DNA of 64,000 nt from Lysobacter changpingensis (GTDB lineage: Bacteria; Pseudomonadota; Gammaproteobacteria; Xanthomonadales; Xanthomonadaceae), in NCBI RefSeq assembly GCF_017308985.1, contig NZ_JADWPE010000002.1, positions 1 through 64,000 of the forward strand, given 5' to 3'. How positions within the stretch are numbered: the first letter of the stretch is position 1; each line of letters begins with the position of its first letter. Under the pieces are notes generated by a model, which was given only the letters and a program-made list of their open reading frames with translations, was not told the DNA's origin and ran no database searches. Both the position numbers and the translations under genes were made by a program. This document shows, in pieces, positions 4,612 through 10,292 of this stretch.

Positions 4612-5312
<701 letters not shown>

Positions 5313-5316
<4 letters not shown>

Positions 5317-6584
5317 GCGGTGCGCGTACCGGACTTCGCCGGCGCATCCTGCTGGGCCTGCTCGGCTACGTGATCGTGCTGAGCGTGGCGGTGGTGGTGC
5401 ACGGCTTCGTCGTGAACGAGCATGCCGAAAGCCTCGTCTGGCAGACGCTGCTCGATTCGGAGATGGACCATCTGCTGGAGCTGCGCGAGCGCGACCCCGA
5501 CTATCCGTGGACCAACACGCGCAGCCTCGCCTTCTACGACGGGCGCGATCCGGCCGGCATGCCGGCGCCGTTGCGCGGCGTCGCGCCCGGCGTGTACGAC
5601 GAGATCATGATCGACGGCGTCGAACGCGTCGCGCTGGTGCGCGAGGTCGATGGGCGTCCGCTCGCGCTCGCGCTGGACATCACCGACCTGGAGGAACGCG
5701 AGTTCGACATGGGCCTGACCATGCTGGGCTCGACGGTGACGCTGGTCGTGCTGCTGTGCATCGCGATCGGATGGAGCGTGAACCGCCTGCTCAAACCGTT
5801 GCGCGACATGGCGCAGTCGATCGGACGATTGCGTCCGGACCAGGCGGGGCAACGCATCGACACGCCCGATTCGGCCAGCGCCGAGCTGGTGGTGATCGCC
5901 GACGCGCTCAACGACTACCTGCAACGCAACGACCGCTTCGTCGAACGCGAGCGCGTCTTCATCGACAGCGCCAGCCACGAGCTGCGCACGCCGGTGGCGG
6001 TGATCGCCGGCGCGAGCGAGATCGCGTTGCAGCAGCCCGGTCTGCCCGAACCCGCACGCGGCCAGCTGCTGCGCATCCAGCGCACGACGCGCGAGGTGGA
6101 GCAACTGGTCTCGCTGCTGCTGGTGCTGGCGAAGGATCCGGCGCGGCTGGCGCGCTCCAGCGACCACGTCGCGCTGGACCAGCTGATCCCGGAAATCGTG
6201 GAAGACCACCGCCATCTCACCCGCGACAAGGACCTGCACCTGGACATCCAGGCGCTGCCGCCGTGCGAGATCATCGCGCCGCTGCCGATCGTGCAGGTCG
6301 CCATCGGCAACCTGCTGCGCAACGCGATCGAGCACAGCGATCGCGGGCGCATCACGATCCGGCTCGAACGGCCCGCGACGGTGGTGATCGACGATCCCGG
6401 GCACGGCATGACGCCGGAGGAAATCGCGGAGATCTACGCGCGCGTGGCGCGTGGCGGCGGTCGCGATGGCGGCGGCATCGGGCTCGATCTGATCTCGCGA
6501 TTGTGCGAGCACCTCGGCTGGCGGCTGGATTTCGCGTCCGACGAAGGCCGGGGCACGACCACGACGCTGCGCATGGCACCGTGA
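5313..6584 (+). CDS. Sensor histidine kinase, ColS-like
   Basis: The 423-residue kinase starts with GTG at 5313 inside the regulator stop (GTGA). First membrane helix about residues 12-34 (ILLGLLGYVIVLSVAVVV), a periplasmic sensor part of about 100 residues, second helix about 135-157, HAMP-like linker, then the dimerisation helix with the phospho-accepting His222 in DSASHELRTPVAV. The ATPase domain has the N box NLLRNAIEHS, the G1 box DDPGHGMTPEE and GGGIGLDLISRLC. In ColS-type sensors an extracytoplasmic metal-binding ExxE is expected. The loop contains acidic clusters (MDHLLELRERD), which is suggestive only. The ligand is unknown. Confidence 0.88.
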
Positions 6585-6679
6585 GTCGCGCGCCCGATGC
6601 GCACTCGCTTCAGGGCACGCGCGCTTGAGGCGCCCGGTCGTGCTGCGTAGGCTCGGCGTTCGGTTATCGGAGGACACGC

Positions 6680-7099
6680 ATGCATCCGGGCTGGAAGATC
6701 GGCGGGCTTCTCGCGCTCGCCGTGTTCGCGATGGGCTCGCTCGTGGGCGGCGCGCCGTATCTGGAAGGCGAGCTTCCCGGCGGGCTGCCGTTCGGCAATG
6801 CGTTGGCGGCGCTCGGGTTGTGCGCGATCGCGGGCGGTGGCGTGGCGATCTCGCGTCCAGGTGTCGTGCGTCGCGTCGCGCTCGCCGCACTGTTCGCGGC
6901 GGCGGCGTGGTTGCCGGTGTCGATCGCGATGGCGGGGAATCTCGCGCTGGTGTTCTCCGGTGCGCGCGGGGATGCGTGGATCGCGTGGAGCGCGGTGGTC
7001 GCGGCGTTCTCCTTCGGGTCGCTGGCATTGGCGGTGATGCAGCGCCTGGTTTCGGGCGTGTGGCCGTTCCTCACCCGGGCGACGTCGCGGGAGCGCTGA
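6680..7099 (+). CDS. Small hypothetical membrane protein
   Basis: The 139-residue product has four predicted hydrophobic helices (about residues 7-25, 39-58, 65-88, 97-118) and little else. A clear GGAGGA site precedes the ATG at 6680. The composition is Ala/Val/Gly rich and I recognise no family motif. It lies after the sensor kinase on the same strand but about 95 bases away, so it need not be part of that operon. Confidence 0.6.
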   Translation: MHPGWKIGGLLALAVFAMGSLVGGAPYLEGELPGGLPFGNALAALGLCAIAGGGVAISRPGVVRRVALAALFAAAAWLPVSIAMAGNLALVFSGARGDAWIAWSAVVAAFSFGSLALAVMQRLVSGVWPFLTRATSRER

Positions 7100-7115: not shown

Positions 7116-7142
7116 TGTCACAACTTCGTCTGCGGGTCCGTC
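7116..7142 (+). promoter_or_regulatory. ECF41-type promoter of the CMD/AhpD gene
   Basis: TGTCACA at 7116-7122 and CGTC at 7139-7142 are separated by exactly 16 bases. This is the published recognition pattern of ECF41 sigma factors (TGTCACA-N16-CGTC), and an ECF41 gene lies 0.6 kb downstream in the opposite direction. Transcription would start near 7149, giving a leader of about 40 bases before the ATG at 7188. Confidence 0.85.
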
Positions 7143-7187
7143 CTTGTCGATGAAGCGGCTCTCCTGGCCGCAATGATGAGAGACGAC

Positions 7188-7637
7188 ATGAACGCTGCCC
7201 TCCCCCTCGACTACACCGCCCTCGCCCCGAGCGCCTTCCAGAACCTGCTCCAGCTCAGCACCGGCCTGCACAAGGGCCCGCTGGGGCCGAAGCTGGTGGA
7301 ATGGGTGTCGCTGCGCGTTTCGCAGATCAACGGCTGCGTGTTCTGTCTGGACATGCACGCCGGCCTCCTGCGCAAGTACGGCGAGAGCCAGCGCAAGCTC
7401 GACACCCTGCCCGGCTGGCGCGAAAGCCCGCTGTTCGACGCACGCGAACGCGCCGGGCTGGCGTGGGCGGAGACGCTCAACGCGCTCGGCGCCACGCCGG
7501 TGCCGGACGATGCGCTGGAGCGCGCCCGCGAGCATTTCGACGAACGCGAGATGGCTGAGCTGACGTTCGCGGTCGCGGCGATCCGTGCGTGGAATGTGTT
7601 GAACGTGGGGCTTCGGAAAGAGTTGCCGGAGGTTTGA
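7188..7637 (+). CDS. Carboxymuconolactone decarboxylase/AhpD-family protein, ECF41 target
   Basis: The 149-residue protein has the AhpD-like redox motif CVFCLDMH (Cys50, Cys53, His57) and the surrounding WVSLRVSQINGC helix of the family. AhpD relatives act as alkylhydroperoxidases or thiol-disulfide reductases; the physiological substrate of the members next to ECF41 genes is not established. I chose ATG 7188, which has a GAGAG site five bases upstream; starts at 7173 and 7176 would add four or five residues. Its promoter is an exact ECF41 site, and the sigma gene is its convergent neighbour, the standard COE-ECF41 pairing. Confidence 0.88.
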   Translation: MNAALPLDYTALAPSAFQNLLQLSTGLHKGPLGPKLVEWVSLRVSQINGCVFCLDMHAGLLRKYGESQRKLDTLPGWRESPLFDARERAGLAWAETLNALGATPVPDDALERAREHFDEREMAELTFAVAAIRAWNVLNVGLRKELPEV

Positions 7638-7722
7638 GGCTTTGCGGTTTGTTTGACTCGCTCCCCAGCTTGCAGGGGTGAGGAGGGACGCTTGCGCGCC
7701 ACTGGCACGCGTCGCGACGAAC

Positions 7723-7745
7723 GCCATCGGGCTTTGCCCGATGGC
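7723..7745. repeat. Perfect 10-bp hairpin
   Basis: GCCATCGGGC (7723-7732), loop TTT, GCCCGATGGC (7736-7745). There is no T-run on either side. It lies beyond the end of the CMD gene and could act as a weak terminator or 3' stabiliser. Confidence 0.5.
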
Positions 7746-7950
7746 CGCGGGGTTGGAAGGGAAGTTGCCAAGCCGCATCGGGGCGAGCGCGGTCGGACGA
7801 ATGTCCTGCTGCTCTGCTTGTTCGGGCAGGCAGGATTCATGGCTGCATCGTTCGGCATCGCTGCGTGCGCTGGAAAATCCAGCACGCCTCCGTGCGCATC
7901 ACAAGCGCGAGCTGATCATTGAAGCCGGCCGTCGGACGTCGTGACTCCGT

Positions 7951-7988
7951 TGCCCCTCGCCCCAACCCCTCTCCCGTTGGGAGAGGGA
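7951..7988 (+). repeat. Intergenic palindrome, CCCTCTCCC/GGGAGAGGG family, copy 1
   Basis: The conserved lead-in GCCCCTCGCCCCAA is followed by a 9-bp stem CCCTCTCCC-GTT-GGGAGAGGG (7967-7987). Four further members occur in the window, all in this orientation. Confidence 0.8.
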
Positions 7989-8064
7989 CTTAAGCGCGCG
8001 CACCCACGTCGCCGCTTCGGCGATCTGCTGCGCCGTCGTCGTTGCGTCGTCCGGTTTTGCATTT

Positions 8065-8093
8065 GTAGCCCGGGTAAGCGAAGCGCACCCGGG
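8065..8093 (+). repeat. GTAG-type REP element (left half of an inverted pair)
   Basis: Full 29-base consensus. Together with 8112-8140 it forms a head-to-head pair separated by 18 bases, the usual REP-doublet organisation of RAYT-linked REPs. Confidence 0.85.
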
Positions 8094-8111
8094 ATGCTGG
8101 CACGCCCGATC

Positions 8112-8140
8112 CCCGGGTGCGCTTCGCTTACCCGGGCTAC
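8112..8140 (-). repeat. GTAG-type REP element (right half of an inverted pair)
   Basis: Exact reverse complement of the 8065-8093 copy. Confidence 0.85.
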
Positions 8141-8200
8141 AGAAGCTGCAGACGCAAGCCGATCGTTGAAACCAGCCTGCCAACGCCACTACGTCGCCGA

Positions 8201-8232
8201 CCTCACCCCACCCCTCTCCCGAAGGAGAGGGG
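8201..8232 (+). repeat. Intergenic palindrome, CCCCTCTCC/GGAGAGGGG family, copy 2
   Basis: Lead-in CCTCACCCCA, then CCCCTCTCC (8211-8219), loop CGAA, GGAGAGGGG (8224-8232). It lies 27 bases beyond the end of the sigma gene and may terminate its transcript. Confidence 0.75.
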
Positions 8233-8258
8233 CCCGAGCCGCAGCCGCCGCAGGCCAC

Positions 8259-9131
8259 TCACGCCACCAAGCCCCTCAACTTGTCCGGATTCAACACCGA
8301 CAGCACCTGCGTGATGCGGCCGTTCTCATCCACGCCGATCGTGCTGATCGAATGCAGCCGTCCCTCGTGGAAACGCAGCAGCGCCGGTTCGCCGTTGACG
8401 TGGCCCAGGCGGAGGTCGGCCTCCCCCTCCGTGCGGCGCGCGACGGTCCAGTAGAGATCGGCGATGCGCGCCGCACCTTCCAGCGGGCGGATCACCGCGG
8501 TGACCTTGCCGCCGCCATCGGACACCAGGCGCGCGTCCGCATGCAGCAGCGCCATGATCGATTCGCGATCGCCCCGCTGCATCGCATGCATGAAGCGCTC
8601 GAGCAGGCGGCGATGCGTATCGGGCGCGACGGCGAAACGCGGGCGTCCGGCCTGCACGCGCGTGCGCGCGCGACTGACCATCTGGCGGCAGTTCGCCTCG
8701 GTGTGGCCGAGCAGCCCGGCGATCTGCGCGTAGTCGTAGTCGAAGACTTCCTTCAGCAGGAACGCGGCGCGCTCCTCGGGCCCGAGCTTTTCGAGCAGCG
8801 CGAGGAACGCCAGCGACACCTGCCCCGCGACGTCGGCCTGCTGCTCCGGGCCGGGCGAATCGTCGGCGTTGAGCGGCTCGGGCAGCCACGGGCCGGGATA
8901 GACCTCGCGCTCGGTACGCGCCAGGCGCAGCCGGTCGATGCCCAGCCGCGTCGTCGCCGTCACCAGCCAGCCCTCGGGGTCGCGGATGGCCGAACGGTCG
9001 GCCTGGTGCCAGCGCAGCCACGCGTCCTGCACGATTTCCTCGGCGTCGCCGCGGCTCCCCAGCATGCGGTAGGCCAGCGCCATCAGGCGCGGGCGGTGGG
9101 TTTCGAAAGCGGTGTCGGGCGTCTCGGACAT
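8259..9131 (-). CDS. ECF41-family RNA polymerase sigma factor with fused SnoaL-like domain
   Basis: The 290-residue factor has sigma region 2 (about residues 10-75), the linker motif WLP at 82-84, region 4 (about 110-165) and a C-terminal SnoaL-like extension. Two short motifs diagnostic of ECF41 are intact: DGGGK at 205-209 and NPDKL at 281-285. In this family the extension replaces an anti-sigma factor and both inhibits and supports activity. ATG at 9131 is chosen because the matching promoter at 9164-9190 places transcription start near 9157, downstream of the alternative start at 9203. Self-activation is therefore likely. The signal sensed by the extension is unknown. Confidence 0.93.
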   Translation of the reverse strand: MSETPDTAFETHRPRLMALAYRMLGSRGDAEEIVQDAWLRWHQADRSAIRDPEGWLVTATTRLGIDRLRLARTEREVYPGPWLPEPLNADDSPGPEQQADVAGQVSLAFLALLEKLGPEERAAFLLKEVFDYDYAQIAGLLGHTEANCRQMVSRARTRVQAGRPRFAVAPDTHRRLLERFMHAMQRGDRESIMALLHADARLVSDGGGKVTAVIRPLEGAARIADLYWTVARRTEGEADLRLGHVNGEPALLRFHEGRLHSISTIGVDENGRITQVLSVLNPDKLRGLVA

Positions 9132-9163
9132 GGGGTGGCCGGATGAAGGTGCGATGTCTACAG

Positions 9164-9190
9164 GACGGCCACGAGACCGGGCCTGTGACA
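9164..9190 (-). promoter_or_regulatory. ECF41-type autoregulatory promoter of the sigma gene
   Basis: On the minus strand TGTCACA (9190-9184) and CGTC (9167-9164) are separated by exactly 16 bases, identical in form to the promoter of the CMD gene. It predicts a leader of about 26 bases and settles the translation start at 9131. Confidence 0.85.
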
Positions 9191-9219: not shown

Positions 9220-9654
9220 TCATTCGACCTCGACCTTCGCCTTGTCGGGCAGCTTCAAATCGAAGCAGTACCGTCCGGCCGGATGCGGCCAGTCGGCGCG
9301 ACCGTAGCGACCTTGTTCGACGGCCGCCGTATCGGTCTCGAACACCGCGCAGAGCCGATACGTGCGCCTGCCTTGCGCGAGGTACCCGTAGGGCTTGCCC
9401 GTGAACGGGTCCTGCGCGGACAGGCGCACGCCCGGCCGTGCGAGCGCGCCCATGTCCGCCGGCAGCGAACCGGTACGTTCGGCCCAGCTTTCGATCTCGT
9501 CCTTCAGCCGATCCAGGTCGCGCACGCGACGCTCGTCCTGACGCACCATCCGCTGCTGGCCCGGCGTCCCCATCGACACCACCGCCGCCACCACGCTCGC
9601 GGCAACCACCACGCCGGTGGCGATCAGCAGCCAGCGGCCGGTCGCGCCGCTCAT
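9220..9654 (-). CDS. Membrane-anchored protein, pseudopilin-like periplasmic domain
   Basis: The 144-residue product has one N-terminal membrane helix (about residues 8-28) and a periplasmic part containing LKDEIESWAERTGSLPADM and DPFTGKPYGYL, a layout reminiscent of type II secretion GspG-like domains. There is no prepilin peptidase site, so it is probably a plain signal-anchored protein. It overlaps the upstream DUF5671 gene by four bases (ATGA) and the two are presumably one functional unit. The function is unknown. Confidence 0.65.
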   Translation of the reverse strand: MSGATGRWLLIATGVVVAASVVAAVVSMGTPGQQRMVRQDERRVRDLDRLKDEIESWAERTGSLPADMGALARPGVRLSAQDPFTGKPYGYLAQGRRTYRLCAVFETDTAAVEQGRYGRADWPHPAGRYCFDLKLPDKAKVEVE

Positions 9655-10292
9655 GCGTCCACCTCTTCGCGTCGCAGATCGTGCAGGTACCAGGCGAATG
9701 CGCTGCCGGCGATCAGCGCGACCACGACGACCTTCAACAGAAAGCGCGTGGTCAGCTCGCCGCCCAAGACGTTGAACACCAGCGTCGTCATGTCGCCGAT
9801 CAGGACGGCCGCCGCCACGAACAGCGTCAGGTACGTCAGCCAGCGGCGCACGGGCGAGAGTCGCTTGATCGGGTGGCGCGCCACGTCCTTCGCCACGTAG
9901 TTCGACACGAACGCGAAGACCGGGAAGGCGATGATGAGCGCCGCCGTCGACCAGCGGATCGAGCGGGCAATGCGATACGCCGCGTATTCTTCGGCCGGAT
10001 CGGGCCATGCACGCTCGATCAGGTCGAACAGCAGGCTGCCCAGGTGCCACGCGGCGAAGTACAACGATGCGAACAGCACGAGATAAAGAAAAGCCTCGCG
10101 CGCCGACACGGATGCGCGCGGGCGGGGCACGGGAACCACGAAGGGCGTGTCGGCGTATGCGTCGATGACGCCGCGCGTCTGGTCGTCGCGCCAGCCTGCA
10201 CTGGCGAGCGCGGCGGTGATGGACGCCTTGGACTCTCCGCGTACCAACGCCTCGTATACGAAGCGCTCCAGTTCCTGCGATCCCGACGCCAT
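9651..10292 (-). CDS. DUF5671-type integral membrane protein
   Basis: The 213-residue product has a cytoplasmic N-terminal segment (LERFVYEALVRGESKASI, resembling a short helical domain of about 60 residues) followed by four to five membrane helices from about residue 68 onward. DUF5671 is my recollection of the family. A good AAGGGGAA ribosome site precedes ATG 10292. It is coupled to the downstream single-helix protein. No enzymatic motif is visible. Confidence 0.65.
   Translation of the reverse strand: MASGSQELERFVYEALVRGESKASITAALASAGWRDDQTRGVIDAYADTPFVVPVPRPRASVSAREAFLYLVLFASLYFAAWHLGSLLFDLIERAWPDPAEEYAAYRIARSIRWSTAALIIAFPVFAFVSNYVAKDVARHPIKRLSPVRRWLTYLTLFVAAAVLIGDMTTLVFNVLGGELTTRFLLKVVVVALIAGSAFAWYLHDLRREEVDA

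Follow-up and report, generated by a model that had tools for sequence, protein, structure and literature searches.

ECF41 sigma factors are a described group, as the initial annotation of this locus had stated: Wecke et al. 2012 (PMC3426412) cover the family, its promoter, its COE/CMD partner and its regulatory tail. As reported there, the promoter TGTCACA-n16-CGTC is backed by 5'RACE and reporters, the ECF41 promoters of B. licheniformis and R. sphaeroides answered their sigma factors in reporter assays, and truncations indicated that the tail is both required for activity and restrains it. Table 4 of that paper gives the convergent layout as rare (9 of 373 loci), and among those nine loci three ECF promoters and four COE promoters were found. 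A second described system is RpoE9/SMb20029 of S. meliloti, which by the account in PMC6180224 comprises an ECF41 sigma factor and a single CMD target. The window, the 64,000-nucleotide stretch of Lysobacter changpingensis analyzed here, resembles the Ecf41Bli and Ecf41Rsp systems of PMC3426412 in the order sigma2-WLPEP-sigma4 plus tail, in a CxxC-containing CMD protein, in the promoter sequence TGTCACA-n16-CGTC and in an apparently very small regulon. It differs from them in having the rare convergent layout with both promoters intact, and in a predicted CMD leader of about 36 nt that carries a hairpin, where leaders of 22/23 nt were mapped in that work. It shares the ECF41 sigma factor and single CMD target with the S. 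meliloti system, in which, however, the CMD gene precedes the sigma gene and probably shares a transcript with it (PMC6180224). The circuit is of a known kind, to which the family comparison described below adds an inversion, a predicted difference between message starts and a predicted hairpin.

The sigma gene occupies 8259-9131 on the minus strand and encodes 290 aa in the order sigma2-WLPEP-sigma4-SnoaL-like tail. Its translation contains WLPEP at residues 82-86, DGGGK at 205-209 and NPDKL at 281-285, the last two of which we take to be the signature letters of the ECF41 tail. WLPEP, located in the sigma2-sigma4 linker, is invariant in all 15 aligned rows including the window, as are the tail residues D205, G207, G208, N281, P282, K284 and L285. 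Among Pfam profiles, PF04542 and PF08281 both scored over their cut-offs, and SnoaL_2 scored 25.8 bits in the tail, marginally below its cut-off of 27. The protein also exceeded the cut-offs of TIGR02957 (SigX4, NCBIfam; 334.2 bits vs. 323.25), a profile family that presumably corresponds to ECF41, and of NF007214 (SigJ subfamily; 313 bits vs. 271). The nearest solved structure by sequence is M. tuberculosis SigJ, 5xe7 (7.3e-49), which was also the best fold match, over its length, of an AlphaFold model built from the 15 rows with a mean pLDDT of 80.4 (Foldseek TM 0.75, E 2.8e-16; 34% identity in the Foldseek alignment). Lower-ranked fold matches were NTF2-like ketosteroid isomerases, and the tail is NTF2-like in the model. 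No anti-sigma domain was detected by Pfam in three neighboring proteins, for which the results were none, one sub-cut-off match and DUF5671. The predicted product of 8259-9131 is an ECF41 (SigJ-type) sigma factor.

The partner gene, at 7188-7637 on the plus strand, encodes a CMD/AhpD-like protein of 149 aa counted from the conserved start. This protein matches PF02627 with 65.8 bits and contains the CxxC as CVFC, within CVFCLDMH; the structures nearest to it (CxxCxxxH) are 7xw1, 2ijc and PA0269/2o4d. Because it failed the strict AhpD profile TIGR00777 (21.2 bits vs. a cut-off of 191.95) and matched only the core-domain profile TIGR00778 (52.6 bits, cut-off 27.8), we file it as AhpD-like rather than as AhpD, and the name CMD denotes membership in the Pfam domain and does not show decarboxylase activity. 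The start was placed at 7188 (MNAALP...) rather than at the ATGs at 7173 or 7176 by comparison with relatives, since the position of the 7173 ATG holds no ATG in loci L095 or L097, which suggests 7188 as the favored start. What the initial annotation had read from the letters of these two genes holds: the coordinates and both tail motifs of the sigma gene are correct in translation, the WLP motif claimed for it is present and is in fact a complete WLPEP, its membership in ECF41 is borne out by the SigX4 and SigJ profiles and by the match to the published promoter, and the CMD/AhpD gene with its redox motif CVFCLDMH is indeed present and convergent to it.

Both genes are preceded by TGTCACA-N16-CGTC with identical spacing, at 7116-7142 on the plus strand for the CMD gene and at 9164-9190 on the minus strand for the sigma gene. 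With spacers of 14-18 allowed, the window contains two motif matches compared with 0.17 expected in shuffles, and one of 100 shuffled windows had two. In the whole genome of 4,059,994 bases, exact TGTCACA-N16-CGTC occurs in two copies, both at the sigma-CMD locus, and the reversed-motif control gave 0. Spacers of 15-17 gave three matches genome-wide and two in the reversed control, the third match being C3:871847 (TGTCACA, spacer 17), inside open frames. The regulon was sought by pattern searches of the organism's own genome, in which a looser search returned 32 matches, two of them at the sigma-CMD locus, and five others were inspected. C3:871847 was rejected as a target, being within a long open frame, and so were C1:32094, C2:247525 and C6:107280 (each TGTCACG, spacer 16); a 481-aa GTG frame begins 56 nt downstream of the C2:247525 site. 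The C3:1035722 site stands in front of the CMD gene of a third ECF41 paralog. The twin promoters described in the initial annotation are therefore in place, and the genome-wide search that it had proposed finds exact copies at this locus only; its prediction of positive autoregulation with the CMD gene as target is supported at the level of sequence, both promoters being conserved in orthologs of the family, and we infer that the sigma factor regulates its own gene.

Two more ECF41 genes are present in this genome, at C3:106045-106890 (L010) and C3:1034677-1035513 (L011), with 47% identity. The second ECF41 gene, L010, lies within a CMD-cupin-sigma-SDR cluster; no TGTCA-type motif was found in the 11-kb stretch around it, and at several related loci GTCACAAT and a CGACC-like element stand before the sigma gene, which suggests that the L010 class has a different promoter specificity. 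The third, L011, is divergent from a CMD gene that follows TGTCACG-N16-CGTC; the 5' hairpin of that CMD gene is strong (z -4.3) and of other sequence. With three ECF41 genes in one genome, and with so close a motif before the CMD gene of the third, both paralogs might also read the sigma and CMD promoters studied here, which would make the locus a node of a three-sigma network. We consider this unlikely, given the low identity of the paralogs, their separate loci with CMD genes of their own and the missing TGTCA-type motif around the second.

A search of the host's family with the sigma protein as query matched 100 of 247 genomes at E <= 1e-40. The 114 matched loci outside the own genome, the window and the two paralogs together form a set of 117 loci. 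A phmmer score above 340 defines a group of close orthologs with 62 loci, 61 of which have a recognizable CMD gene; L164 and L186, whose matches are cut by a contig end, fall outside this group, and L164 is part of alignment A1 (see below). Among the 61 close orthologs with a CMD gene, 58 are co-directional (sigma then CMD) and three are convergent (the window, L095 and L096). Of the 62 close orthologs, 61 have the sigma promoter ([TC]GTCAC-N17-CGTC), and the CMD promoter precedes 60 of the 61 CMD genes, the remaining one having TGTC at -10. At co-directional loci the CMD promoter is intergenic or, at loci with little space between the genes such as L110, overlaps the end of the sigma gene, so that each gene retains its own promoter. 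Read-through to CMD looks possible at these loci, yet the separate promoters are kept. Across the 117 loci (681,045 bases), TGTCAC[AG]-N16-CGTC occurs 153 times before the two genes and ten times elsewhere, and four of these ten are sigma promoters that were missed through a misplaced frame start (L110, L113, L145 and L154). Twin predicted promoters are the rule among close orthologs in the host's family.

Three further observations concern individual loci of the survey. In group D (L188-L208), all 17 CMD promoters found have GATCGTC as their ending, which most promoters in the window's group lack; it is a -10 extension specific to the group D subgroup. L104 contains two tandem CMD-like genes (at about 3437 and 3976) behind a single ECF41 gene. 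L021 (JAHREJ010000018.1), labelled Bacillus subtilis, has an ECF41 gene that scores like the Stenotrophomonas records and is 65% identical to that of the window; its contig is probably contamination.

Gene neighborhoods were compared between the co-directional loci L097 and L098 and the convergent loci, namely the window, L095 and L096. The sigma-side neighbors, at 9651-10292 and at 9220-9654 (minus strand; a synteny marker in which no anti-sigma domain was found), are common to all five loci. The CMD-side region 5300-6628, a sensor-kinase-like gene by reading, is also common to all five, as determined with a query that was an out-of-frame translation and with similarly starting open frames in four of four relatives. 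The other synteny marker, a gene at 6680-7099 on the plus strand (139 aa, no Pfam match), is common to the compared loci except L098. The comparison indicates that only the CMD cassette, that is, promoter, hairpin and gene, was flipped in place between common neighbors. The convergent layout corresponds to one orientation change on the tree, where the three convergent rows form a clade with a support of 74 at an unsettled fork. The convergent gaps of L095 and L096 are about 50 and 63 bp and contain one strong hairpin, in place of which the junction of the window, at 7638-8258 (about 620 bp), has REP-like repeats along with GGGAGAGGG inverted repeats. A REP-like inverted pair with a GTAGCCCGGGTAAG core lies at 8066-8142, and the window holds four copies per strand. 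Because the cassette is flipped, transcripts of the sigma gene would not read through into CMD, which would therefore require its own promoter.

Published start sites give a register for the messages. Wecke et al. 2012 mapped starts by 5'RACE at G in two other bacteria (PMC3426412); the distance from the mapped ECF41 target start to the ATG is given there as 22/23 nt, and Table 5 of the same paper gives 31/32 nt. If the distances in Table 5 are measured from the -10 element, as we read them, the difference places the start 8-10 nt past the -10, so that the CMD message would begin at GAA and the sigma message of most relatives at AUG. We infer the transcription start sites of both genes in this register. 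After the CMD promoter, G is found at +9 in 48 of 60 orthologs and A at +11 in 57 of 60; the register of the window is one base longer, and its CMD start is predicted at 7152 (plus strand), the G of GAA and the tenth base after CGTC. The first in-frame ATG of the sigma gene lies 8-9 nt past CGTC in 54 of the 62 close orthologs and 27-33 nt past it in seven (32 nt in the window), and the motif is absent in one. A leaderless sigma message is predicted for most relatives. For the window it was rejected, since the ATG is 32 nt past the -10 element, and the predicted sigma start at 9155 (minus strand) leaves a leader of about 24 nt; the clade of the window would have a short sigma leader instead of the leaderless start of most relatives. 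Outside the host's family the sigma motif was found at six of 54 loci, four with the 8-9 nt spacing (L213, L214, L216 and L219) and two without an ATG found.

A hairpin at 7155-7171 (plus strand) is predicted to form at the 5' end of the CMD mRNA, with 6 bp, a 5-nt loop and -10.4 kcal/mol in the window. The stem consensus directly after GAA is GGCGGCCATnGTGGCCGCC, its core GGCC...GGCC is nearly invariant, and pairing begins 12 or 13 nt past CGTC in 49 of 60 leaders. Three duplicate leaders (L099, L132 and L135) were dropped before counting, and L149, in which the -10 reads TGTC, is outside the 60 CMD leaders. Their mean folding z is -1.93, with p <= 0.05 in 34 of 60 and the other 26 not individually significant; the hairpin of the window is among the weaker ones (z -0.6 and -1.37 in two folds). 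Control folds gave a mean z of 0.01 upstream of the CMD promoter (4/60 significant) and of 0.13 after the 61 sigma promoters (1/61 significant). A mixed group of ten other loci has a mean z of -2.09 (6/10 significant), and the more distant group D one of -0.63 (3/17 significant), the hairpin being weak or absent in most of its members. At the gathering threshold, Rfam reported two tRNAs in the window and no match at the sigma-CMD locus. A leader-extended pattern (promoter + CTNG + GAA) scanned in 149 genomes of the host's family gave 33 matches, 32 of which are at ECF41 loci when positions are compared by hand; six of these 32 are sigma starts as judged from the matched letters, and the control columns were 0 among the rows listed. 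The single match away from ECF41 loci falls within an open frame of 676 aa, and the best sigma match of its genome is weak (6.5e-13).

Alignment A1 retained 64 of 67 rows after L011, L173 and L187 were dropped as belonging to another CMD class. Its distinct rows number 63, and 85.3% of their cells are paired. Two-sided changes number 21 compared with 8.0 expected, a total not reached in any of 500 shuffles, and the count of further pair types is ordinary (101/500 shuffles). In covariation, the slide-by-minus-3 control scored 0.132 compared with 0.156 for the stem, and it had seven two-sided cells compared with 21. On a quick tree in which many forks are open, whole pairs were swapped at least six times at 15-32, four times at 16-31 and twice at 14-34. 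Broken pairs occur at 14-34 in 23 rows, at 15-32 in 16 and at 21-26 in 27, and RNAalifold alone returns just three inner pairs. Over all eight pairs, A.C mismatches (42) exceed G.U pairs (14), which argues against reading the stem purely as RNA. Seven G.U and no A.C occur in the core of five pairs (columns 16-20), and the corresponding G.U and A.C tallies of the other three pairs are 3 vs. 6 at 15-32, 1 vs. 14 at 14-34 and 3 vs. 22 at 21-26; therefore, pairing often fails at the ends of the stem. We predict that the CMD message starts with GAA plus a hairpin in which compensatory changes have occurred.

The same letters could be read as DNA, with the inverted repeat past the CMD promoter serving as an operator through which a second regulator shuts that promoter off. 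Its nearly invariant core is as in a palindromic operator, its position just downstream of the predicted start is that of a classic repressor site, and the excess of A.C mismatches is not favored by RNA pairing alone. However, the outer arms swap whole pairs repeatedly at three positions, the core has G.U and no A.C, and other CMD classes have differently sequenced hairpins near the promoter (L011, L187, L189 and L192), so that an operator seems to us a rather doubtful explanation. A role of the hairpin in translational control, or in sensing something such as temperature or a ligand, instead of passive 5' protection is quite improbable: the hairpin does lie between predicted start and start codon and is found in CMD leaders and not after sigma promoters, but in the six CMD leaders for which folding began at the predicted start the centroid keeps the same stem, with the start codon unpaired in those folds that include it.

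The hairpin on the CMD message has a limited taxonomic range. A search of the phylum matched 53 of 397 genomes at E <= 1e-50, including six genomes of the family, that of the window among them. Outside the family, 27 CMD leader folds from 26 loci reached z <= -2 in three cases (L217, L226 and L251). L217, from the same order, has the same GGCC stem in the same place after GAG, and the stems of L226 and L251, from the same phylum and another class, differ in sequence and spacing; z is -1.1 in L237 (same order) and -1.7 in L030. A hairpin common to ECF41 loci at large was rejected on these 3 of 27 folds and the 3 of 17 in group D. Since among these folds from outside the family the GGCC stem is clear only in L217, the hairpin is best seen, from its distribution in sequences, as a lineage add-on and not as a part of ECF41 as such.

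The locus is most likely an ECF41 switch that drives itself and the CMD gene, with a very small regulon and a CMD mRNA that is protected at its 5' end. The SnoaL-like C-terminal tail would receive the signal, and the sigma factor would then steer RNA polymerase to the two exact TGTCACA-N16-CGTC promoters. Transcription from the sigma promoter would produce positive feedback, and the output would come from the promoter of the AhpD-like CMD gene. Within the clade of the window, the flipped CMD gene would depend on its own promoter; its message would open with GAA and the hairpin, likely protecting the 5' end from decay, and in most relatives the sigma message would be leaderless. One sigma factor acting on near-identical promoters could thus, through differing 5' ends, make the enzyme high-output and the regulator low-output. 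The predicted circuit itself is strongly supported by the comparison and the published promoter, and we hold the whole explanation, a self-amplifying ECF41 switch with a flipped CMD cassette and two kinds of mRNA 5' end, to be highly probable. Its least certain step, for which we see an even chance, is that the hairpin shields the 5' end of the CMD mRNA from decay. Stem-loops in the 5' UTR of bacterial mRNAs are described in PMC7509114 as giving stability to recA (Acinetobacter) and vacA (Helicobacter), and the CMD leader is like these in having a 5' UTR stem-loop, here a predicted one. We propose more tentatively, and at somewhat less than an even chance, that the twin promoters are built for opposite messages, a leaderless one for sigma and one with GAA and a selected hairpin for CMD, that these set the ratio of output to regulator, and that this arrangement is typical of the host's family and its order and survived the inversion of the cassette.

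A search of open-licence papers did not find a 5' stem-loop reported for an ECF41 target. If the proposal of opposite messages is true, it would add a post-transcriptional layer of ECF41 control that we did not find described in that literature. ECF41 factors are widespread and apparently control very few genes, and the natural inversion seen here splits read-through from direct activation of CMD. With just two exact sites genome-wide and three ECF41 genes, this bacterium offers a minimal testable system, and the conserved 5' hairpin together with the predicted leaderless sigma message opens specific and inexpensive ways to test how one sigma factor could yield unequal output from matching promoters.
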